IMG/VR virus record: IMGVR_UViG_3300027525_000009
Span: 1 to 43,134 of that record
Origin: a virus
Length of the DNA: 43,134 nucleotides
Direction: 5' to 3' (one strand)
Made by a program: the position numbers and the translations under genes. This document shows positions 3,753 through 20,425 of this stretch, piece after piece (the stretch's first letter is position 1; every line of letters begins with the position of its first letter). The notes under the pieces were generated by a model, which saw only the letters and a list, made by a program, of their open reading frames with translations, did not search any database and was not told the DNA's origin.

Positions 3753-4343
3753 ATGGGAGAAACAAAATCAACATTCAAAACATTAGCAGCGGTTAATGTT
3801 AAGGACAGAGTAGAAAAGAAAGGTAGATTCGATTACTTATCTTGGGCATATGCCTGGGCTATGATTAAAGATCAATACCCTGATGCAAATCGTAAGGTAT
3901 ATGAATCAGAATCCAATGAACTAAATTACTTTTCAGATGGAAGAACAGGCTATGTAAAGGTAGGTGTAACAATAAATGATGTAGAACACATTGATTATCT
4001 GCCTATTATGGGACACAACAATCAATCGTTAACATTAGATAAGATTACTTCATTCGCAGTAAACAAGACTATACAACGTAGTACAGTTAAAGCTATAGCT
4101 ATGCATGGATTGGGATTATCTTTATGGGCAGGAGAAGACTTAGTAGATATCAGTGAGGCAGCACCTGCTGTTAAGCAAGAAGCTAAACCAACTCTAAAGA
4201 AGACAAGTGAGAAGTGGAATGATGTAGTTAATTACGTTAAGGCAAACAAGACAAATCCATTCGCTTCTACGATTAAAACATTAGAGACTAAGTATATTAT
4301 TTCATCAGCAATTAAAAAAGAATTAGGAGTTTATGTCAAGTAA
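3753..4343 (+). CDS. Single-strand annealing protein, DUF1071/Sak-like
   Basis: A 196-aa protein with the pattern of the DUF1071 group of phage annealing recombinases related to Sak/RAD52: FKTLAAVNVKDRVEKKGRFD, the strong motif YLSWAYAWAMIKDQYPDA, YVKVGVTIN, LPIMGHNNQSL, TIQRSTVKAIAMHGLGLSLWAGEDL. These proteins coat single-stranded DNA and anneal complementary strands in phage recombination and replication. The next gene encodes a RecE/lambda-exo-like nuclease, the usual partner, and the following one an SSB-like protein. Residues after about 135 (EAAPAVKQEAKPTLKK) form a charged linker, then a small C-terminal domain. Confidence 0.85.
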   Translation: MGETKSTFKTLAAVNVKDRVEKKGRFDYLSWAYAWAMIKDQYPDANRKVYESESNELNYFSDGRTGYVKVGVTINDVEHIDYLPIMGHNNQSLTLDKITSFAVNKTIQRSTVKAIAMHGLGLSLWAGEDLVDISEAAPAVKQEAKPTLKKTSEKWNDVVNYVKANKTNPFASTIKTLETKYIISSAIKKELGVYVK

Positions 4344-5070
4344 TATAATAGAGTCGCTAAGAGACGACTCAAAGTACTATGGTGACTTTGGTAAAAAGTA
4401 TCTATCTAATTCAGATATCTATAGTTTACTAAACAATCCTAAGAACTTCAGGATTAGCCAAAAGGGATTACCTTTATTAAAAGGTGGTTACTTTCACACA
4501 GCTATGTTAGAGCCACAGAAGATAGGAGACTATCCTGTTATAGATGCTTCAACAAGAAGCACTAAAGCTTTCAAAGAACATATATTAGAGAACAATTTAT
4601 ATCCATATGACGTCTTACTATCTAAGGAGGTAGATGAGATAACAACATGGGTTAATGCAATGAAGTCTAACTTCGTAATGTATAGCGACATATATGCTCA
4701 AGGTAATATATACGAACAGCCTGCAATAGCTACCATATTTGGGATAGAGTGGAAAGGTAAGGCAGATATAATTACAGCTGATAAAGTTATAGACATAAAG
4801 ACCACAGGTAACATAGATAAGTTTAAGTGGAGTGCAAATGATTATAACTATGATAGTCAGGCTTATATATACGAGCAGCTATTCGGTAAGCCAGTTGAAT
4901 TCTATATAATAGACAAGACCACATTGAAACTAAAGATAGCTAAACCATCAGAAGAAACTCTACTAAGGGGTCGTGATAAGGTTTTAAGGGCTATAGAAGT
5001 ATACAATAAGTTCTTTGCTGAGGACTCAGTAGAGGACGTTACACAGTACATAGAGTATGAACAGTTTTAG
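4333..5070 (+). CDS. RecE/lambda-exonuclease-like PD-(D/E)XK nuclease
   Basis: The 245-aa product has the core of phage exonucleases of the RecE/YqaJ type: an early helix with SNSDIYSLLNNPKNF, GGYFHTAMLEP (51-61, His55), Glu128, then the active-site strand pair KGKADIITADKVIDIKTTG with Asp145, Asp154 and Lys156, followed by YNYDSQAYIYEQL (Tyr173, Gln176), the helix that completes the site. Such enzymes resect double-stranded ends and hand single strands to the annealing protein encoded just upstream (11-base overlap). Length is in the normal range for compact phage versions. Confidence 0.85.
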   Translation: MSSNIIESLRDDSKYYGDFGKKYLSNSDIYSLLNNPKNFRISQKGLPLLKGGYFHTAMLEPQKIGDYPVIDASTRSTKAFKEHILENNLYPYDVLLSKEVDEITTWVNAMKSNFVMYSDIYAQGNIYEQPAIATIFGIEWKGKADIITADKVIDIKTTGNIDKFKWSANDYNYDSQAYIYEQLFGKPVEFYIIDKTTLKLKIAKPSEETLLRGRDKVLRAIEVYNKFFAEDSVEDVTQYIEYEQF

Positions 5071-5073
5071 TAT

Positions 5074-5090
5074 TTGTTCACACTCATCAT
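5074..5090 (+). repeat. Dispersed DnaA-box-like motif, copy 2 (17 bp)
   Basis: TTGTTCACACTCATCAT lies 3 bases after the nuclease stop codon, in the 75-base gap before the SSB-like gene. It is identical over 17 bases to 1248-1264, and both copies are preceded by TAGTATT-like sequence and followed by a hairpin with GGTGCT. This is the only copy outside coding sequence and so the most likely to be a functional site. Confidence 0.75.
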
Positions 5091-5096
5091 TTTAAA

Positions 5097-5127
5097 GGAG
5101 TCAGCGGTGCTTCTCCAACTAAGCACC
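5097..5127 (+). promoter_or_regulatory. Hairpin with potential H-type pseudoknot in the SSB-like gene leader
   Basis: GGTGCTT (5106-5112) pairs perfectly with AAGCACC (5121-5127) around the loop CTCCAACT. The loop's CTCC (5113-5116) is complementary to GGAG (5097-5100) upstream, giving the order S1a-S2a-S1b-S2b of an H-type pseudoknot with connecting loops of 5, 0 and 4 nt. It ends 18 bases before the start codon at 5146. T4 gene 32 mRNA is known to use a leader pseudoknot for SSB autoregulation; the same job here is an inference. Confidence 0.5.
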
Positions 5128-5145
5128 CATTAAATACCATTAATT

Positions 5146-5421
5146 ATGTCAAACGACAAAATATTTGCAGACGGATTTATCTTCAAGAGAAGAGAGAACG
5201 CACCAGAATTTGTAATCGGTAACATCAGCGTAAAAGTTGAAGATGCTGTTGCTTTTTTAAATGCCAACCAAAAAAATGGATGGGTTAACCTAAATGTACT
5301 TAACAGTCAGGCAGGTAAACCATACATTGAACTTGACACTTTTGTACCTAAGAAGAAGGCTAATGGGGTGGACACAGCACCTAACCAAGCACCTGTACAA
5401 GAGGCAGATTTACCCTTCTAA
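5146..5421 (+). CDS. SSB-like single-stranded-DNA-binding protein with acidic tip
   Basis: A 91-aa protein with a beta-rich core (DGFIFKRRENAPEFVIGNISVKV, WVNLNVLNSQAGKPYIELDTFVPKK), then a flexible Pro/Gln/Ala linker and the C-terminal end EADLPF. This closely copies the acidic tip of bacterial SSB (…DDIPF), which recruits partner proteins. The core is shorter than a classical OB-fold SSB (about 110 aa). Position after an annealing protein and nuclease and before the primase-helicase supports the call. A terminator follows at 5440-5468, and the leader carries a hairpin or pseudoknot. Confidence 0.7.
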   Translation: MSNDKIFADGFIFKRRENAPEFVIGNISVKVEDAVAFLNANQKNGWVNLNVLNSQAGKPYIELDTFVPKKKANGVDTAPNQAPVQEADLPF

Positions 5422-5439
5422 TTAACTAACTAAAAGAAG

Positions 5440-5468
5440 ACAAGGGGTTTAATTATCCCTTGTTTTTT
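5440..5468 (+). terminator. Rho-independent terminator after the SSB-like gene
   Basis: ACAAGGG (5440-5446) pairs with CCCTTGT (5457-5463) around a 10-base loop, followed by a T-run to 5468. It ends the 2929-5421 transcription unit. The rest of the 154-base gap to 5576 holds an inverted repeat, TTTCCC (5497-5502) with GGGAAA (5511-5516), and an A-rich leader. I see no consensus TAnnTTTG promoter there, so read-through may feed the primase gene. Confidence 0.8.
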
Positions 5469-5575
5469 CTTTAGTAAATGTTGAAAATGTTAATTTTTTC
5501 CCTTAGAAATGGGAAATAAAAAAAATACAATTAAATAAACGCTATAAAGATATATAGAACTATAAAATCAACATA

Positions 5576-8008
5576 ATGAGCAATAACGTAACAATATTTA
5601 GAAACATAAAAGACACATCTACTCCGTTCTTTAAAGATATGGCATCTATTCTTGATAGAATGAAAGATGGCAAGTCTAAGGATTTGATTAAGCAGATTAG
5701 GTCAGAGAAGAATAAAGAGGTTCGACAGGAACTAAAAAAGAATTTACCAGCAATTTGTTTTTCTGGAACATTTAATAAAAGAAATGATGATAGTATCATT
5801 GAACACAGTGGATTCATTTGCTTAGACTTTGATGGATACAAGACTAAGAAGGATATGTTAGCCGAAAAGGAAAGGTTATCAAAAGATAGATTCACATATT
5901 CTGTATTTGTATCGCCAAGTGGTAACGGATTAAAGTCTTTAGTAAAGATACCTGCAGATATTGAGAATCACAAGAACTACTTTACATCATTAGAAAAACA
6001 TTATAACTCAGAATATTTCGATAAGACAAGTAAGAACATATCAAGAGTATGTTACGAGTCTTACGATCCATTAATATTTATTAACTTAAACTCAAATGTT
6101 TGGGATAAGATTGAGGAACAGGAATACAAGGTTGTAGATAAATACTCTTCAAGACCAACTATACCAATAACAAACGAGAATAAGATAGTAGAAATACTTA
6201 TGACTTGGTGGACAAGAAAGTATGGATTAGTAGATGGTGAAAGAAACAATAACGTTTATATACTCGCTGCTGCATTTAATGACTATGGAATTAGCAAATC
6301 ATTAGCAGAGTATATCATGTCTCAGTTTGAATCAAAAACATTTACTTCACAAGAGATAAAGACCACTATAGCATCAGCATACAGTCAAACACAAAACTTT
6401 GGGTCTAAGTATTATGAGGATGAGGATCAAGTTAATTCTGTTAAGATGAAACTAAAACGTGGAGTATCAAAAAAGGAAATTCGTCTTCAGTTAGCTGAAT
6501 CCAATATTGAAGACGCTGTAGTTGAAGCTGTATTAACTTCTATTGAAGAAGATGAAAGCGACAAGAGATTCTGGAGTAAGAATGAGAAAGGTGTTATAAC
6601 AATGATACACTACTTGTTTAGGGATTTTCTTGAGGACAATGGATTCAAGAAGTTTTGTCCAGAGGGAAGTAAGAACTTTATATTTGTTAGAGTTACCAAT
6701 AACCTTATAGACCACACTACAGAAGAAGAAATAAAAGACTTTGTACTGGGTTATCTTGAAAAGTTAGATGATATGTCTGTATATAATTTCTTTGCAGACA
6801 AAACTAGATTCTTTAGAGAAGAATTTCTTTCCCTGTTAGGTACTGTTGACGTTTACTTTGTAGAGGACGACAGGGACACAGCATATCTTTATTATAGAAA
6901 TTGTGCTGTAAAAGTAACAAAGGATGGAAAGACTGCTATAGACTATCTAGACTTAGGTGGACACGTTTGGAAGGACCAGGTTATTGATAGAGACTTCCAA
7001 GTATGTGAGTCTTTTGAATGTGATTACAAAACATTCATAAAGAATATATCAGGAGATGATAAGCATAACATGAAGTCAATGAGAAGTACTATCGGATTTA
7101 TGTTACACGCATATAAAAATTTAGCATACTGTCCTGCAATAATATTAAATGATGAATCAGTATCGGAAGATCCTGAAGGAGGGACAGGTAAAGGTTTGTT
7201 TATCAATGCACTATCTCAAATGAAGAAGTTAGTTGTTATAGATGGTAAGGCTTTTAATTTTGAGAAAAGCTTTGCCTATCAATTAGTTTCAGCAGATACA
7301 CAGATACTTTGTTTTGATGATGTAAAGAAGCATTTTGATTTTGAAAGATTATTTAGTGTAGTCACAGAAGGAATGACTCTTGAAAAGAAAAATAAAGATG
7401 CTATCAAGATACCATTTAGCAGGTCTCCAAAGGTAGCTATAACAACAAACTACGCAATAAAGGGAAGAGGTAATTCATTTGAAAGACGAAAGTGGGAATT
7501 AGAGTTTAGACAATTCTATACAAAAGATTTTACCCCATTAGTAGAATTTGGAAAGTTATTATTTTCAGATTGGTCAGTAGAAGAATGGTGTGCATTTGAT
7601 AATTATATGATTGAGAATGTTATGTTCTACCTGAACAATGGCTTGATAAAAGGTAATTGGAAAAACTCAAGTATAAAGACATTAGGTTCTAATACGTCAC
7701 AAGACTTTATTGAGTGGTGTGATTTAACTTCTTCAGAGGTAACTAATGGAGTTATAAGACTTGACGAAAAACTATACACTAATGACCTTTATAATGAATT
7801 TGTTCAGGATAACCCTGACTTTTCAAGAACAGGAAAGAGAACTGTATCAAGAACTGAATTTAATAAGTGGTTAAGATACTACGGAAAGTATAAGACAGGA
7901 AATGAGCCTAAGACCAATAGAGATATGCAGGGTAAATGGATTATGTTTATAACAAATAATACAGTAAAAAATGAAGAAGAAAAAGACGGAACTAGACTTC
8001 CATTCTGA
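5576..8008 (+). CDS. Primase-helicase fusion: VirE-N-type primase plus SF3 helicase
   Basis: An 810-aa protein. Residues 1-170 match the VirE N-terminal (BT4734-like) archaeo-eukaryotic primase type: GFICLDFDGY (79-88, metal ligands Asp84 and Asp86), SPSGNGLK (113-120) and a final TSKNISRVCYESYDP. Residues about 200-280 are a helical linker like PriCT domains. Residues about 500-700 are a superfamily-3/D5-type helicase: Walker A EGGTGKGL (534-541), Walker B QILCFDD (576-582), motif C KVAITTNY (619-626) and GNSFERRKW with a likely Arg finger (637/638). It should prime and unwind DNA at the fork; no DNA polymerase is in the window, so the host enzyme or a gene outside it must extend. The last 38 bases overlap the next gene. 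Confidence 0.9.
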   Translation: MSNNVTIFRNIKDTSTPFFKDMASILDRMKDGKSKDLIKQIRSEKNKEVRQELKKNLPAICFSGTFNKRNDDSIIEHSGFICLDFDGYKTKKDMLAEKERLSKDRFTYSVFVSPSGNGLKSLVKIPADIENHKNYFTSLEKHYNSEYFDKTSKNISRVCYESYDPLIFINLNSNVWDKIEEQEYKVVDKYSSRPTIPITNENKIVEILMTWWTRKYGLVDGERNNNVYILAAAFNDYGISKSLAEYIMSQFESKTFTSQEIKTTIASAYSQTQNFGSKYYEDEDQVNSVKMKLKRGVSKKEIRLQLAESNIEDAVVEAVLTSIEEDESDKRFWSKNEKGVITMIHYLFRDFLEDNGFKKFCPEGSKNFIFVRVTNNLIDHTTEEEIKDFVLGYLEKLDDMSVYNFFADKTRFFREEFLSLLGTVDVYFVEDDRDTAYLYYRNCAVKVTKDGKTAIDYLDLGGHVWKDQVIDRDFQVCESFECDYKTFIKNISGDDKHNMKSMRSTIGFMLHAYKNLAYCPAIILNDESVSEDPEGGTGKGLFINALSQMKKLVVIDGKAFNFEKSFAYQLVSADTQILCFDDVKKHFDFERLFSVVTEGMTLEKKNKDAIKIPFSRSPKVAITTNYAIKGRGNSFERRKWELEFRQFYTKDFTPLVEFGKLLFSDWSVEEWCAFDNYMIENVMFYLNNGLIKGNWKNSSIKTLGSNTSQDFIEWCDLTSSEVTNGVIRLDEKLYTNDLYNEFVQDNPDFSRTGKRTVSRTEFNKWLRYYGKYKTGNEPKTNRDMQGKWIMFITNNTVKNEEEKDGTRLPF

Positions 8009-12618: not shown

Positions 12619-12724
12619 CGAACAGATACTAAGAGAAAAGTTAAAATCTAATCCAGATTATAAGTTAATAAGAAAGCTTCAGCAATTGTTAGACGAGCCT
12701 GAAAAAAAATCATCAGAAGTCTAA
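12602..12724 (+). CDS. Small hypothetical protein (40 aa), last gene of the plus-strand arm
   Basis: ATG at 12602 opens a 40-aa frame ending at TAA 12722-12724. It overlaps the preceding gene by 17 bases, and its last 12 bases overlap, on the opposite strand, the end of the giant 2570-aa gene. The product is charged and helical (MKDQINEQILREKLKSN, LIRKLQQLLDEPEKK). Not recognised. Confidence 0.5.
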   Translation: MKDQINEQILREKLKSNPDYKLIRKLQQLLDEPEKKSSEV

Positions 12725-15700
12725 ATTTTTAAGTTCATCTTCTAGTTTTTTTATTTTTCTACCAGCAGGCGAATTTTTCTGTTGTTTTCTAGCTTTAGAT
12801 TTTCTATCTTTTCTTTTTTTAAGTTCTCTTTCTCCGTAGATTATTTTAAAGTCTTCATCACTTAATTTTAAATCTTGCTGTTTAGAATCTTTTATGTCAG
12901 ACCAATTCTGAGCCATCATATATCTTCTTATATCCTTGTATAGTGGTAATGGTACTCCTGTAAACTGACTAGCCTCTAAGGCAGTTCTTAATGTCATAAA
13001 CTCAGCTGCTGCTCTGTCGGCAACTTTTTTATTTTTGCTTCCCATTTTAGCAAGTAAATCACCCATTCTTAATAAACTACTAGCTTGTGGAGCTAAAGGC
13101 CCTGCACCAATTCTTATTGCCGACTCAGCTACACCTTCTTTCTCTAGTTTTTGTTGGTTTATTACACTAAATATAAGAGAATGTATATATGGATTATATC
13201 CTTTGCCATCTTTGTCTGACCATAAACCTAATTCTTCTCCATATTCCTCGTTTAATTTTTCAATAGCTAAATTTACTCCAATCATAGGAAAGTTTCCTGT
13301 AGTACCTCTTGTTATTAAAGAAACTCCTGCACCTGCTAATTGTCTAGTGGTTAACTCTTCATAATCTATGTCATCTTCATCATCAAGTCCTAACACTCCA
13401 TTGAACATAGAAGCTAGTGCTTTGTACATAACAACGTATAAACTCATTCTAGTCATGATTCCTGCTAATGTAGCACCTCCTTTTATAGCACCCATTTCTC
13501 CTTGTCCAACCATAGAAGCAACAGCTTGTCTTGCTGTTACAAATTCATTGATAGTAAACCGAGCCATATAGGAGTTTATTGACTTATATAATATCATTCT
13601 AGCACCATCTTGATCTGAGAGTTGATTTTTCAACACGCCACTAAAGGGGTCATTAGATGTTGCCGCTTGAGTAACTTTAGCATCAGCTGCTCTCTTGGCA
13701 GCTTGAATAGCATCTGCATACTTAGTCATGTATGCTTCGTCATTTTTTGATATTTTATCTGCGTCCATGTCTTGACCAGTTTCCTGTTTAAAAACCTTAG
13801 CAAAAGTTCCAAAAAACAAAGGTCTTGAAATCATTTTATCAGGAGTACTTAATAAATTATCTGCCAAAAACTCTGAACCATCTGCAAACTTTTTACCAAA
13901 TCGAGCTGCGTATTGAACAGTACTTTTAGCATTACTACCACTAGCTCGTTTACTTCCTTTTTTGTTTCTAACTACACCAGCGTTTTCTGATTTAGAACCT
14001 CCTAGTATTTCTGAACCCCAATTTTTAGTTACAGTTGTAGACCCTACATTTTCTGCAAAAGACAATCCGTTTTGCATTAAAGATAAATTTGAATATTTTC
14101 CTAACCCTAATGCTAATTCTTTAGGAGCTGACATCAATCCAAATGTCAAGTTACTTCCAAGTTCTGCCACAGCTCTTGGAGCAGATGCTAGCGTACTATA
14201 ATAACCAATTTTTCTTGCTGAATCAAACCACTTTCCTCCTATAACGTCTGTACTAAAATTACTAGACAAAACCTTATTAATAGATTCATCATATGCTCTT
14301 GACAAAGAAACAGTTGCTTCTATTACTTCTTTTGTAGCATTGTCTTGTTCAGAAAGTTTAGTTAATTGAGTTAAAGCTTTTCTAGATGTTTGTATTTCAT
14401 TAGTTAAATAGTAATCCATACCTGCCATTCTTAAAGCTCTTAGTGCTGTAGCTACAGGATCAAAATCAATTGCCTTTGCTCCTGGAGTTCTACTTATAGA
14501 TGTTTTAGATTCAGTACTTGTTTGTGGATTTATGTAGTTTTTCTGTGATATTAATTGTTGGTCTAATTTGTCAGTTGTAGCATCAACTTTGTGATGAACA
14601 TAATTGTTCAATAAGTCTAATTTATTACCTCTCACAATAGTTGTGGCATAGGCTTGCTTGTCGCCTAAAGCGCCATAAATTTCCTGCATTATACCTATCG
14701 CTTTCATTACTTGTGGAGATAAATTTTGTTTCATCTTCTTAGTTGTAATGACTCCTCCTTCGCTGTTTTTTGCTTTTATATCAAGTAATATATCTATGTC
14801 AGCTTGAGTATAATTGCTTTTTGTTCTAGAATTGTTAAAGTTTTCTATAGTCTTGTCTATAAATTCATTTGCTTCTGCAACCCCTTTATTACCTACGTTT
14901 GATTCGCTTTCTAAAGCTAGTAAGTATGTTTGTATTTCAAACCTTCTTCTTACTGCAGGATTAGTTCCTTCTTTATAAGTAGGAGCTATTATCTGTTCTA
15001 CAGCATCAAGCTTATCTGTTAGTCTTCCTGACCAAGTTTTAAACTGACTGTACTTTGTGGCTATTGGTTCAAAACTATTATTTCTTATAGTATTATTTTT
15101 ATAGTTTCCAAAAGCATTATCTACTGCAGATAAAGGATTAGTCCTCAGCAGCTCTAATGATGTTGTGGAATTTGCTCCCCTTTTTGTGGCGTTTTTTAAA
15201 CCAGCTTTTAAGGAAGCTTCGGCCCTGCTTTTAACCATAGCTATTTTATTTTTAGTAGTTCCATATTTGTCTACCAAAGGACGCATGTCATAAGCCCTAC
15301 TATTTATTGACTGACCAAGTTTGTTTGCAGCGTGTGTATAATGACCATTATTAATGTTTTCAAGACTAACTTCTAATAAATCTAATTGCTTGCCTGTTAA
15401 CCCAATTAGGTCGCTGTCTTTAATGTTTTGAAACACTTGAACACCACCTGCTTCTTTAGTTGTATTGTCAAGGCTTTTTAAACTTATACCCCTAGACCTA
15501 GATTTTATTTTTGTTATAATGGCCTGTCTATTCTCAGCAAATTTATTAGCAGCTTCTACAAGCTCTTGATTTTCATCAGTCTCTGCTGAGTTAATTTTAT
15601 CTATAAGAGTTTGTAATGTAAATGAATCTAGTTTATCTAAGTCGTTTTCAATAAACTTAGAATCTTCTGATATTAAAGTTTCACCATCTACATCTTCATT

Positions 15701-18700
15701 AATAATTTTATCTACTATAGTTTTTAAAGTTTTATTTTCTTTAGTTTCAGTCTCTTCATCTGTATCTTGAATGTTTTCATTATACAAAGAATCAGCCATG
15801 TTCTGAGAATCTATTACTAGCTGATCATCTAACTTTAAATTTTGTTTTTGCTTTAGAAGATTACTTAAAAAATCATTATAACCATCTATGTTTTCACTAG
15901 TAAGATTTTTAGTTGGAGTATTTAGTATAGTTCCTAACCTAGATATAAGGTCTGGATTTAATCCATAGTCTCCTTTATTTAATCTTGTGGTTACTCTATT
16001 ATTAAGCTTTTCTGCTTTCAAAAGTTTTGCTGCGTAATCAGCATCATTAAATACCTTTTCTGAATACTCTATTAATTCTTGTACAGCAACCTGATTATCA
16101 AGATTAACACTATTAACTTTATTTATAACAGCTTTGGTTTGTGCTGCAGTAATAGTTCCCTTTTTACCTTTAGAATATATCTTTATCTGTTTATTAAGGT
16201 CTTTTCTTTTGGTTTTTAAATCTTGTTTACCTTCTCTGTTGGCCTTGTTCCACGCTTTCCAAAATCTTTTACGCTGAGTATTTTCTCCTTCTTGCTTTGC
16301 CTTATCAGTTCTAGTGGTACTCTTTATAGATTGTAAAATACCTTTATATGTATCAGCCGTTACAGTTTGACTATTTGTTTTAGCAATAGCTTCTACCTCA
16401 GCCTTAACCTCAGCTTCATTAGCAGCATATAAATCTATTTGCTCATTTGAAAAATTAGTCTCTCCATTAGCTATCTTAGTAGCTAGTCTTCTTGTTTTAG
16501 ATTTATCTTTAGGAGTATCTTTTCTTTTCTTTGTAACTAATGCATCAATTTCTGCTTGATTCTCCGCATAAAACTGTTGAGCTTCATCACTAAACTCCTG
16601 ATTAGATTCACCATCTACTAATCTATTAGCAAATGATTCAACCTTATTATCATTGTTCACACTCATACCTTTCTTTGCTGAGGAAGGTTGAGTAGATGTC
16701 TGATTAGTTTTAGCTGCGTCATTTGCTGCAATCTTTTCTGCATAAGCTTTAGCTTCTTTAGAAGTTTTAAAGCTTTTAGTTAAAGCATTGCTTCTAGTCA
16801 TTTGACCACCTTGATTTGTATTAACTCTTACCTCAAATCTATAATCAGTATTTTTTCTGGCAGAAGGTTGACCTTGGTCGTTTTGAGCCGAAATATTAAC
16901 CTCTACTTTATCAGAAGAATAGTTTTCATATCTACCTGCTGAGTCAGGGGAATTTGGTTTTAAGAGTTCAGTATCTGTCTGCGTAGTAGTGTCGGCAGTT
17001 TGGTCTGTTTGCGTTTCACTTTCGGTTTCAGTCTGTTGGGTAGTGTCTGACTCAACGTCTCCTTCTCCCACTTCAGTCAGTCCCACTTCGGTTTCTTTCC
17101 CAACAGTTTTGCTTTCCTTATCTTTTTCTAAAGCAGCATTATTAGCTGTTTCAACAGGAAAAGCTAAGGCTTGCTTTTCTTCCATTGATAACTTATTAAA
17201 GTTTTGTACAGCTCTACTTCTAATTTCGGTGTTATTTATTTTATAGTTTTGTTCACCTGCAGCTTCTTTTTCAGCAACTAACTCTCTGCCTGCATCATCC
17301 ATTAGTTTTTGTTTTGATTTGTTATTTACAAAATCAAAGTTGCTGTTTTGAATTATGTTGTTTTTTAAATCCTGAATCTGAACATCAAGATAAGGTGAGA
17401 AAACTTCAGATACTTTTTTTTCTGATTCTAATTCCTTAATTTTATTTAAGTCACTCATCACCTGTAAAGATGTTTCAGCACTTAAATTTGATGGTAAACC
17501 ATTAATGGTTTCATTAAATATTTTAACATCACTCATTAAGTTATCAGCTTGCTGTTGCGTATAAATACCTCTCTTTACTTGTGAATCTAAAAGTGATTGT
17601 GTTTTTTTTACATTACTAGCTAATAAAGCTAAAGATTTCATTTGATCAATAGCTTTACCACCTCGTCCAGTCATACTAAAAGACCTAGTTGTATTTGCTT
17701 TTACATCTCCTGCAACAGGCATTAAGATACCTGCACTTAAAGATATAATAGAGGTGTTAGCAAAGTCATCTAAACTAATAGTCTCCTTCATTATTTGTTC
17801 ACCTGCTTGTTCGTTTATGTCTGAACCAATGATATAAGCTTGTGCGCCTTGTTGAATGTTTTCTTGAAAAAATTCTTTTCCACCTTCAGTTAAATATACA
17901 GGAACATTTCTTATAACTCCATCTAATGTTTTTCGTAAATAAGACCTAGATGCTTCAATCCCTGCTCCTTGCGCATATCTGTTAATTGTATTCTCAACAA
18001 TTTTTTGTTTTACTTTTGTTCCAAATATCTTATCCATAGCAACACGCTGTGTAGATATTGGAGCTGTTAAAACACCTAATGCATATCCCTGAGTCGCTGC
18101 TTCAGAAGCTAATAAATCTGCTTCCTCGTTTGATAAACCTGCATCTAGAGCTGACTTTCTAACTTGTGACGATAATGAGCTACTCATTAAAGTACCCTGA
18201 GCAATCATAGCCGAAGCTGTTGAAGCTCTCATAGGTACTTTTTCTAACAAAGAAACAACTTGTCTACCTTGCTTGTATTTAGATGCAAATGCAATTCCTC
18301 TTGCACTTTGACCTGCTATTCCAACACCCCTAGTAAGAGCTATCTGAAGTAGCATATCTGAAGCCACACCTGCAGTTGTTACTGTTGCCCCTGTGCCACT
18401 AAAACTACTTACATCAACTCCATTTAACTGAACTTGTTTTCTTATTTCTTTTATTTGTTCTGGCTCTAATACGCTGCTTACTCTTATCTTTAAATCTAAA
18501 TCATATATTTCTCCGTTGTCATCAATCATATACTCTCTACCATTTGCAAAAGCGCTTTTACCACTTGCATAGGTATATCTAAGCATATCATCTCTGTTAA
18601 GTTCTGTTTCAGCTTGATTCATTTGAATTTCATCAGTAACAGATTCCATGCCTAGCCAATCATAAGTCCAATCAGAAAAACTATTTATCCTATCATTTAC

Positions 18701-20425
18701 AGAACGACCCCCTTGAGATCCTGCATCGAGCAACCATTGAGTATTTGAACCACCTGCACCACCTTCTAATTCTCTTTGATAATTTTCTTTTGTTTCGGCT
18801 TTTTGTTTTTTTACTGCAAATGACAAAGTAGGAAATTCTTCTTCCATATAATTCCTAAGCTCATCTATTGCAATAGCAGGTTTTAAATCTATTTTATCTA
18901 CATCACCATTTAAAAAAGGATTCTTTCCTTCATTCTTAATTTCGTATTCAAGAACTTGTTTGTTTACATTTTGCAAATCAACTTCAGCTAAATAGTTTTT
19001 TAGGTAATCATACTTTAATTTCTCAGCTGCCAAAGTTGGATTATAGTTTCCAGAATAGTCGTAATATCTTCCATCTTCAGATATTGTTTCGTTTTCTAGC
19101 AACTTAGCATATCTTTCTTTAAATCCGTTTTCTATTAAATAGCCATTAAATCCAGATATGTCAATTTTATTACCATCACCTGATAGCTTTTTTAAAGTTT
19201 GCTGGTCATACATTTTTCCTAAAACATCATCTTCAAAACCTGTTGGTTCATAATCTGAGTTTTCAAAAATCTCAAACTCTTCATCAGTATAAGCTCCATC
19301 TTCTCTTTGAAATATAGACTGAAGTTTTTCAACGCTAGCATCAGGGCCTGCTAATTCTACAAGCCTTGCCGTTTCTGCATCAAAGTCTTTAACTTTTTTA
19401 ATTATAGCATTTCTTTTTTCTTTTTCTTCAGGAGTGTAACTAAAGTTTTTTACATCAGAATATTGAGAATATTCTTTTTGTTTTTCTTCTTGCAGTTTTA
19501 ATGCATTGTCTTTAATTGACTTTACAGAAACTTCTTGTAGTTTTTCAATAGATTTTTTATTTCCTTTTAATGCAGAGTTTATATCTGATTGCTTTACATA
19601 TCCTATAGCTAATGCTTTTTGAATATTAGGATCAGCTTCTATTTTTAATTTTAATTGTTCATCTATAGGTAAATCTAAAAACTCACCTTTAGTTTCAATA
19701 GCTCTGTCTGTTTTTGTGAATGTTATACTTCCCTCTCCTCTTTCTCGATTGGGATTTGTTGCTTTTTCAAACAAAGAACTAAGGTCATCTTTTAATAGAT
19801 TTTTGTTTTTTCTAGAATCATATCTTTCTTTCCATGAACCTTCACCATAGGCAAATGCAGATTCTTTATCTGTTCCAAAATCAGCAACCTCTCCTCTTTT
19901 TTTAGCTTCTTCGTAAACAGATTCCCAATCTGATTCTGCCTGCTCAGACATGTCAACAAATTCTCCGTCTTCATTTTGAAATACTGTAGGGAAAGAAAAC
20001 CAATTTTCTCCATCAAAAGTTTCGGTTTTCATTTTGTGCGTAGATACACTTCCATCGTCATTTAATTGAACACCTTTTCTATTTGGTGCGTCAATGTTTA
20101 TATTGAATTCTTCCTCAACTTCTACTTCTAAACCATCCGAAAATCCAGGAGTTGTTTCCGTCTCTGTAGTGGATTCCGTAACGACCTCGTTTGAAGTGGA
20201 AGGAGTATCGACTTGATTTTTTTTTTCAGAAGTAGCTATTCCAACATTTGTTCTCCAAGTTTCAATGTCGCTTTTTGTATACTTCTTATCTGTAAGATAA
20301 GCATGCACATTGTCTTGTATTTCTTCACTACCTGAAAAATTTGATTTCCAAGTTTCAAAATCACTTTTGGTTGCGCCATCATTAGTTAGCGTGTTCCATA
20401 TGTTTTTAAGAATTTCTTCGTCCAT
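12713..20425 (-). CDS. Giant internal-virion/ejection-type protein (2570 aa)
   Basis: Two short N-terminal repeats (TKSDFETWKSNF at 19-30, TKSDIETWRTNV at 50-61) and an adjacent module with RKGVQLNDDGSVSTHKM and FSFPTVFQNEDGEFVD (residues about 115-190) are features I know from giant phage virion proteins. Residues about 690-800 are weakly hydrophobic and Ala/Gly-rich. A Thr/Gln/Glu low-complexity linker lies near 1125-1155, and long helical, Lys/Glu/Asn-rich stretches follow. The C-terminal 500 residues (LLSTPDKMISRPLFFGTFAKVF, SLYVVMYKALASMFNGVLG) resemble the LPD38 domain of polyvalent proteins. I see no protease, lysozyme or polymerase motif. Last gene of the structural arm, after two other ejection-type proteins, like the T7 gp14-15-16 order. 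Function is inferred. Confidence 0.7.
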   Translation of the reverse strand: MDEEILKNIWNTLTNDGATKSDFETWKSNFSGSEEIQDNVHAYLTDKKYTKSDIETWRTNVGIATSEKKNQVDTPSTSNEVVTESTTETETTPGFSDGLEVEVEEEFNINIDAPNRKGVQLNDDGSVSTHKMKTETFDGENWFSFPTVFQNEDGEFVDMSEQAESDWESVYEEAKKRGEVADFGTDKESAFAYGEGSWKERYDSRKNKNLLKDDLSSLFEKATNPNRERGEGSITFTKTDRAIETKGEFLDLPIDEQLKLKIEADPNIQKALAIGYVKQSDINSALKGNKKSIEKLQEVSVKSIKDNALKLQEEKQKEYSQYSDVKNFSYTPEEKEKRNAIIKKVKDFDAETARLVELAGPDASVEKLQSIFQREDGAYTDEEFEIFENSDYEPTGFEDDVLGKMYDQQTLKKLSGDGNKIDISGFNGYLIENGFKERYAKLLENETISEDGRYYDYSGNYNPTLAAEKLKYDYLKNYLAEVDLQNVNKQVLEYEIKNEGKNPFLNGDVDKIDLKPAIAIDELRNYMEEEFPTLSFAVKKQKAETKENYQRELEGGAGGSNTQWLLDAGSQGGRSVNDRINSFSDWTYDWLGMESVTDEIQMNQAETELNRDDMLRYTYASGKSAFANGREYMIDDNGEIYDLDLKIRVSSVLEPEQIKEIRKQVQLNGVDVSSFSGTGATVTTAGVASDMLLQIALTRGVGIAGQSARGIAFASKYKQGRQVVSLLEKVPMRASTASAMIAQGTLMSSSLSSQVRKSALDAGLSNEEADLLASEAATQGYALGVLTAPISTQRVAMDKIFGTKVKQKIVENTINRYAQGAGIEASRSYLRKTLDGVIRNVPVYLTEGGKEFFQENIQQGAQAYIIGSDINEQAGEQIMKETISLDDFANTSIISLSAGILMPVAGDVKANTTRSFSMTGRGGKAIDQMKSLALLASNVKKTQSLLDSQVKRGIYTQQQADNLMSDVKIFNETINGLPSNLSAETSLQVMSDLNKIKELESEKKVSEVFSPYLDVQIQDLKNNIIQNSNFDFVNNKSKQKLMDDAGRELVAEKEAAGEQNYKINNTEIRSRAVQNFNKLSMEEKQALAFPVETANNAALEKDKESKTVGKETEVGLTEVGEGDVESDTTQQTETESETQTDQTADTTTQTDTELLKPNSPDSAGRYENYSSDKVEVNISAQNDQGQPSARKNTDYRFEVRVNTNQGGQMTRSNALTKSFKTSKEAKAYAEKIAANDAAKTNQTSTQPSSAKKGMSVNNDNKVESFANRLVDGESNQEFSDEAQQFYAENQAEIDALVTKKRKDTPKDKSKTRRLATKIANGETNFSNEQIDLYAANEAEVKAEVEAIAKTNSQTVTADTYKGILQSIKSTTRTDKAKQEGENTQRKRFWKAWNKANREGKQDLKTKRKDLNKQIKIYSKGKKGTITAAQTKAVINKVNSVNLDNQVAVQELIEYSEKVFNDADYAAKLLKAEKLNNRVTTRLNKGDYGLNPDLISRLGTILNTPTKNLTSENIDGYNDFLSNLLKQKQNLKLDDQLVIDSQNMADSLYNENIQDTDEETETKENKTLKTIVDKIINEDVDGETLISEDSKFIENDLDKLDSFTLQTLIDKINSAETDENQELVEAANKFAENRQAIITKIKSRSRGISLKSLDNTTKEAGGVQVFQNIKDSDLIGLTGKQLDLLEVSLENINNGHYTHAANKLGQSINSRAYDMRPLVDKYGTTKNKIAMVKSRAEASLKAGLKNATKRGANSTTSLELLRTNPLSAVDNAFGNYKNNTIRNNSFEPIATKYSQFKTWSGRLTDKLDAVEQIIAPTYKEGTNPAVRRRFEIQTYLLALESESNVGNKGVAEANEFIDKTIENFNNSRTKSNYTQADIDILLDIKAKNSEGGVITTKKMKQNLSPQVMKAIGIMQEIYGALGDKQAYATTIVRGNKLDLLNNYVHHKVDATTDKLDQQLISQKNYINPQTSTESKTSISRTPGAKAIDFDPVATALRALRMAGMDYYLTNEIQTSRKALTQLTKLSEQDNATKEVIEATVSLSRAYDESINKVLSSNFSTDVIGGKWFDSARKIGYYSTLASAPRAVAELGSNLTFGLMSAPKELALGLGKYSNLSLMQNGLSFAENVGSTTVTKNWGSEILGGSKSENAGVVRNKKGSKRASGSNAKSTVQYAARFGKKFADGSEFLADNLLSTPDKMISRPLFFGTFAKVFKQETGQDMDADKISKNDEAYMTKYADAIQAAKRAADAKVTQAATSNDPFSGVLKNQLSDQDGARMILYKSINSYMARFTINEFVTARQAVASMVGQGEMGAIKGGATLAGIMTRMSLYVVMYKALASMFNGVLGLDDEDDIDYEELTTRQLAGAGVSLITRGTTGNFPMIGVNLAIEKLNEEYGEELGLWSDKDGKGYNPYIHSLIFSVINQQKLEKEGVAESAIRIGAGPLAPQASSLLRMGDLLAKMGSKNKKVADRAAAEFMTLRTALEASQFTGVPLPLYKDIRRYMMAQNWSDIKDSKQQDLKLSDEDFKIIYGERELKKRKDRKSKARKQQKNSPAGRKIKKLEDELKNLDF
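12715..12743. terminator. Candidate bidirectional terminator between converging arms
   Basis: AGAAG (12715-12719) pairs with CTTCT (12739-12743); inside, TAAA and TTTA can also pair. An A-run lies just left (12702-12709, U-run for minus transcripts) and a T-run just right (12746-12752, for plus transcripts). The stem is weak, but the symmetrical placement at the end of both arms suggests shared termination. Confidence 0.4.
16653..16666 (+). repeat. Dispersed DnaA-box-like motif, copy 4 (14 bp)
   Basis: TTGTTCACACTCAT matches the first 14 bases of the 17-bp motif at 1248 and 5074. It lies inside the giant minus-strand gene, where it reads in frame as ATG AGT GTG AAC AA (residues about 1254-1258, MSVNN), between two charged modules. 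It is the shortest copy and could be coincidental. Confidence 0.4.

Follow-up and report, generated by a model that had tools for sequence, protein, structure and literature searches.

A conserved H-type pseudoknot, read as RNA in the sense direction, very probably precedes the gene for an SSB-like protein in the viral genome analysed here, as judged from comparisons between related leaders. The window, i.e. the whole stretch of 43,134 nucleotides (IMG/VR record IMGVR_UViG_3300027525_000009), contains a single copy of it, as does each of the relatives' leaders that were read. The pseudoknot is likely to act in cis on the translation of the SSB-like gene, and we lean towards the product of that gene as the repressor, given the gene specificity of the element and the precedent of bacteriophage T4 gp32. 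In our preferred explanation, which we put forward with moderate confidence, the SSB-like protein represses its own synthesis and the pseudoknot is the translational operator.

The SSB-like gene and its leader

The element lies in an operon whose genes code for a Sak annealing protein (3753-4343), a PDDEXK exonuclease (DUF3799/exonuclease VIII-like; 4333..5070, plus strand, stop codon TAG at 5068-5070) and the SSB-like protein (5146..5421, plus strand), which is probably both the product of the regulated gene and the repressor. An intrinsic-terminator-like hairpin, ACAAGGG/CCCTTGT with a T run (5440..5468, plus strand), was read from the sequence 3' of the SSB-like gene and also came up in a scan for compact pseudoknots (5436-5475); the primase gene follows (5576-8008). 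This primase has relatives in named isolates whose hosts are Flavobacterium, Polaribacter, Nonlabens, Cellulophaga, Maribacter and Bacteroides, and the host of the phage analysed here is therefore likely to belong to the Bacteroidota, in support of the original prediction of a Bacteroidota phage. The window also has a 2570-aa open reading frame on the minus strand (12713-20425), opposite to the replication genes.

The SSB-like protein has 91 residues and ends in DLPF. Its C-terminal residues P90 and F91 are invariant in 28 homologues, whose tails are DLPF-like and acidic, and a PF tip is the typical C-terminal end of bacterial SSBs. No match was found to a Pfam, PHROG or NCBIfam family or to a PDB sequence. 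The AlphaFold2 model has a b-b-a-b-b core (pLDDT 80), and searches of the PDB gave no match with E<=0.001 (best VIA, Z 2.2), an absence that proves nothing about the fold. Because no family match and no convincing PDB match was obtained, and an SSB identity is suggested by the gene context and the PF tip, we use the name 'SSB-like'. The location of the pseudoknot before an SSB-like gene, as first proposed, is thus borne out by gene context and by the invariant PF, but not by a match to a known SSB fold or family. Short proteins ending in DDLPF or DVPF recur in Bacteroidota phages, including L185 (MW202828.1) and Maribacter phage Panino (L378, 3682-3864); the Panino protein is annotated as an SSB and gives at best a very weak profile match (E 0.17). 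The DLPF-ended short proteins of the isolate phages elemoF and Panino do not belong to the SSB-like family, and no comparable leader was found at the genes checked. In cellular genomes, the one pattern used retrieved no homologues.

A 75-nt gap separates the exonuclease stop (5070) from the ATG of the SSB-like gene (5146). It houses the pseudoknot and a linker, all described here on the plus strand. The first stem, S1, pairs GGAG (5097..5100) with CTCC (5113..5116) over 4 bp, and the second, S2, pairs GGTGCTT (5106..5112) with AAGCACC (5121..5127) over 7 bp. Loop 1, TCAGC (5101..5105), and loop 3, AACT (5117..5120), give loop lengths of 5, 0 and 4 nt. The pseudoknot ends 18 nt before the ATG, leaving an A/T-rich unstructured linker (5128..5145) with one TTAAAT and one TTAATT, the putative ribosome landing region. 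A finder of H-type pseudoknots that was not given the position selected the same fold in the leader (4 bp, 7 bp, 5/0/4), and the coordinates, pairings and loops of the original prediction were all correct.

The hairpin alone is far more stable than its shuffled versions (z -4.6 over 26 nt; 0/200 shuffles as stable). When the whole 75-nt gap was randomised 2000 times by dinucleotide shuffling, no version equalled the score of the pseudoknot. By a crude compact-pseudoknot score, the leader ranks about fifth genome-wide, with a handful of other stretches scoring similarly. As several such stretches are present in the 43-kb window, the single sequence is not conclusive, and comparative evidence carries the case.

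Several other readings of the region were rejected. An upstream mini-ORF with a GTG start at 5107 and GGAG as its Shine-Dalgarno sequence lacks the start codon in relatives L002, L004 and L024, and the same GGAG is 45 nt away from the ATG of ssb, which discounts it as the Shine-Dalgarno sequence of that gene. No T run follows the pseudoknot hairpin, as would befit an intrinsic terminator. A frameshift stimulator for the exonuclease is contradicted by the location of the element after the stop codon, at a variable distance, with a tRNA in the gap in L049 and L057. Finally, a known riboswitch or RNA family was dismissed: at the gathering score, a tRNA was the sole Rfam match among the window and 15 relatives, and two sub-threshold matches were snoRNA noise. 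A search for Bacteroidota -33/-7 promoters found none at the leader, and the four matches in the window correspond to the chance level.

Conservation and gene specificity

Homologues of the SSB-like protein were collected by protein similarity, independently of the RNA element. The element is present in every homologue of at least 67% amino acid identity with enough upstream DNA, and the pseudoknot is kept in all 21 distinct leaders of the window's clade. In this set, four of the seven S2 pairs show changes on both sides (26 cells, 0/500 shuffles), and S2 is 94.8% paired in register, against 35-58% for slid versions. S1 is GGAG/CTCC throughout, both arms being unchanged and fully complementary in 21/21 leaders. 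As it does not vary, covariation within this clade neither supports nor refutes it, yet the comparison indicates that S1 is under strong constraint: the 15 positions of GGAGTCAG, CTCC and ACT are all invariant, as opposed to 4 of 17 four-fold codon sites in the same genes. The loops partake in this conservation, with an invariant TCAG in loop 1 and W-ACT in loop 3. A search in which S1 was left free returned contigs of the window's own clade only. In the closest relative, L001, an insert of ~41-48 nt with its own CGGCA/TGCCG hairpin separates the exonuclease stop from the pseudoknot (at about 5088-5093 of the window), and the pseudoknot is intact.

A pattern scan of 2.9 million viral contigs matched at least 119 stretches. 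Among the matches listed, all 35 stretches whose S2 helix has 5 bp or more share an identical spacer, of 8, and those with any other spacer form no S2 helix. All 33 S2-forming stretches with readable downstream DNA, again among the matches listed, precede an SSB-like gene, and comparison shows both the fixed place of the predicted element and its specificity for that gene. In L049 and L057 a tRNA lies upstream in place of a directly adjoining exonuclease, and the pseudoknot is still found with ssb.

Pseudoknots of the sister clades

At a greater distance (about 50-66% identity), the leaders of the homologues are unrelated in sequence to that of the window, and many of them fold as H-type pseudoknots in the same place. 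We computed p values from 500 dinucleotide shuffles per leader. Among 127 leaders, a pseudoknot was obtained at p<=0.01 in 37 and at p<=0.05 in 66, and a further set of 46 leaders gave 17 and 24, respectively. The controls at the same two thresholds were 0 and 1 of 124 for coding DNA inside ssb, 1 and 8 of 118 for exonuclease coding DNA, and 4 and 6 of 118 for leaders of other genes in the same loci. A stricter intergenic filter on the latter comparison left just 8 ssb leaders and was not relied upon.

The distance from the end of the pseudoknot to the ATG is mostly 13-24 nt in sister-clade leaders. In a set of 72 non-redundant leaders, a pseudoknot ending 10-26 nt before the ATG was found in 29 of the 50 with a gap longer than 40 nt and in 1 of the 21 whose gap is at most 40 nt, the gap estimate being crude and some of the leaders counted overlapping short upstream genes. 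Approximately half of all homologues are without a detectable pseudoknot, and in most of these ssb comes straight after another gene. L248 lacks the whole pseudoknot (about 30 nt), and its close relatives L265 and L357 have the element, so that nature itself supplies a comparison here. The top-scoring folds of some leaders, e.g. L402, L403 and L446, are off the usual position and are probably not real.

Both helices covary in the sister clades. In alignment A9, with 32 sister-group leaders, the 3'-proximal B helix is 100% paired and all seven pairs are double-changed (76 cells, 0/500 shuffles); the A helix, whose presence creates the pseudoknot, scores better than versions with a shuffled 5' A arm in 20 of the 32 leaders, with 31 distinct arm pairs. 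In an 11-member subset, five of eight A pairs and five of seven B pairs are double-changed. All these covariation counts include related sequences and are not independent events, and the slide controls collapse. The loop before the 3' B arm carries a shared motif with a consensus around AAAYAGA. Thus the element is conserved, S2 covaries in the window's clade and both helices covary in its sisters, in keeping with what had been predicted from one sequence; at this comparative level, a predicted pseudoknotted structure is shown.

These data bear on the idea that, in the window's clade, the 7-bp hairpin alone is real, with a GGAG/CTCC pairing due to coincidence and invariant blocks that are protein contacts. 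S1 is devoid of any variation there, and the window has a few more compact pseudoknots that score similarly, as this idea would have it. We nevertheless consider it distinctly improbable, in view of the failure of 2000 shuffles to match the leader, the full complementarity of S1 in 21 of 21 leaders, and the same topology in sister clades with different, covarying sequences. As the 4-bp helix of the original prediction does not vary in its own clade, it has indirect support.

The strand was judged from mismatch types, as a comparison of sense and antisense energies is biased by selection on sense scores. The helices contain 13 G-U cells and 2 A-C cells, an excess indicative of a sense-strand RNA read in the direction of ssb; comparison shows the strand in this respect. 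The same ratio argues against a function as single-stranded DNA, for example at a replication or recombination site opened close to the replication genes, with the element only happening to precede ssb. The region is rich in replication and recombination genes, and the authors of the STAXI study contemplated that a pseudoknot close to Ssbp genes might act as ssDNA (PMC2864571). However, with the spacing to the start codon fixed and the element following ssb when the upstream genes change, we regard such a function as highly unlikely.

Other potential structures were observed around the sister-clade elements. A covarying hairpin, GTGTCC-UYRA-GGACAC, is found just upstream of the pseudoknot in L048, L057, L228, L247, L250 and L260 and is common in relatives, with GTGTCT..AGACAC variants and TCGA, TTAA, TTGA or TCAA loops. 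In L241 and L253, significant pseudoknots (p 0.002) 33-37 nt ahead of the ATG apparently fall within the 3'-terminal part of the upstream coding sequence; they showed no covariation and may be codon-driven. In L036-L039, L061-L063, L225 and similar loci, a short gene precedes ssb, and its ..EVP.. and ..LE.. codons give GTTCCAA/TTGGAAC complementarity at the usual distance, which either arises by chance from the coding or reflects an RNA fold within the coding sequence.

A putative operator for autogenous control

On the model of T4 gp32, which works in this manner with a leader pseudoknot, we infer an action on translation initiation, a repressive effect, and the SSB-like protein as the ligand. 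In T4, gp32 in excess over ssDNA binds the leader pseudoknot, and from this nucleation point it cooperatively covers an A/U-rich tract (PMC535899, PMC3014915). By analogy, the RNA between the exonuclease and SSB-like genes would fold into the compact pseudoknot ending 18 nt before the start codon, leaving the A/U-rich single-stranded tract free as a ribosome landing site. SSB-like protein in excess over available ssDNA would most likely bind the pseudoknot and cover the linker or sterically block the 30S subunit, switching off its own translation. Replication of the phage would then expose ssDNA and draw the protein away, and its synthesis would resume.

The linker is also what a cis-acting RNA without a protein ligand might need, if the pseudoknot insulated, stabilised or positioned the ribosome landing site as an mRNA stability element or a translation enhancer. 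In 60 leaders whose pseudoknot is well placed, the linker averages 87% A+T, compared with 53% in the pseudoknot. The constant distance from the ATG, the unstructured A/U linker and the end of the structure just beyond the expected 30S footprint agree with such a role, as does the terminator-like hairpin after the gene, which makes a stable short mRNA plausible. In contrast, the invariant loop nucleotides and the shared AAAYAGA-like loop motif suggest specific recognition, and a passive insulator needs neither a pseudoknot nor restriction to one gene. We consider a role without ligand rather unlikely.

Riboswitches and ribosomal protein operators include small pseudoknots with conserved loops. 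Together with the conservation of loop bases within clades, this precedent makes it conceivable that the ligand is a protein of the host, a different replication protein of the phage or, if the element is a riboswitch, a small molecule. Such a ligand appears improbable, with the element found only before the SSB-like gene among the matches listed, the Rfam search devoid of riboswitches, and the conserved bases differing between clades, as expected if RNA and protein co-diverge and not if there is one fixed ligand.

The preferred reading, autogenous repression by the SSB-like protein, has its closest parallel in the gene 32 operators of T4 and RB69 (PMC535899, PMC3014915). There too, a leader pseudoknot before a phage gene for an ssDNA-binding protein is followed by an A/U-rich unstructured tract up to the start codon, and the operator sequence diverges between relatives as the architecture persists. 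T4-type phage RB49 has no pseudoknot, like some homologues here. The differences are the protein family, the host phylum, the location of the operator inside an exo-ssb intergenic gap, and the distance between pseudoknot and AUG, 18 nt here and about 40-67 nt there. The tract of the gp32 operator has several UUAAA/UAAA repeats; that of the window has one TTAAAT and one TTAATT, and such motifs do not recur consistently in relatives. In our proposal, the leader is a putative operator that would work like that of gp32, and the protein is not placed as a gp32 relative.

The nearest named RNA, the STAXI motif, is also a pseudoknot; it occurs in bacteria and phages close to genes whose products bind ssDNA or otherwise handle DNA (PMC2864571). 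It comes as two or three tandem repeats, often with UUCG tetraloops, near several kinds of genes, unlike the single copy directly before one gene described here, which has no Rfam match. In the case of the S15 (rpsO) operators (PMC4137082, PMC5100602), different RNA structures in different clades, including a pseudoknot before the start codon, are reported to regulate homologues of one gene; S15 is a ribosomal protein, not an SSB, and its function in regulation has been experimentally proven. The rapid turnover of the RNA between clades resembles that reported for the T4/RB69 operators and for the S15 operators.

According to PMC535899, it is not known if specific mRNAs are regulated by any SSB protein other than T4 gp32 and M13 gp5, and wider study of gp32 autocontrol has been called for (PMC3014915). 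The literature within reach of our search, which most subscription papers were not, describes no such leaders outside T4-like phages. On a broader proposition our judgement is evenly balanced: a superfamily of Bacteroidota phages may control an uncharacterised SSB family via leader pseudoknots that have kept their topology and their distance to the start codon through a complete turnover of sequence from clade to clade, gp32-style control having evolved independently with an unrelated protein. If true, these phages would offer a natural series of co-diverging RNA-protein pairs, and the dozens of sequence-divergent leaders make the idea amenable to direct tests, cross-regulation from one clade to another among them. 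Leader pseudoknots in a second SSB family, apparently unrelated to the first and from an AT-rich, Shine-Dalgarno-poor host phylum, would suggest that coupling the level of SSB to free ssDNA via an RNA decoy is a general solution.
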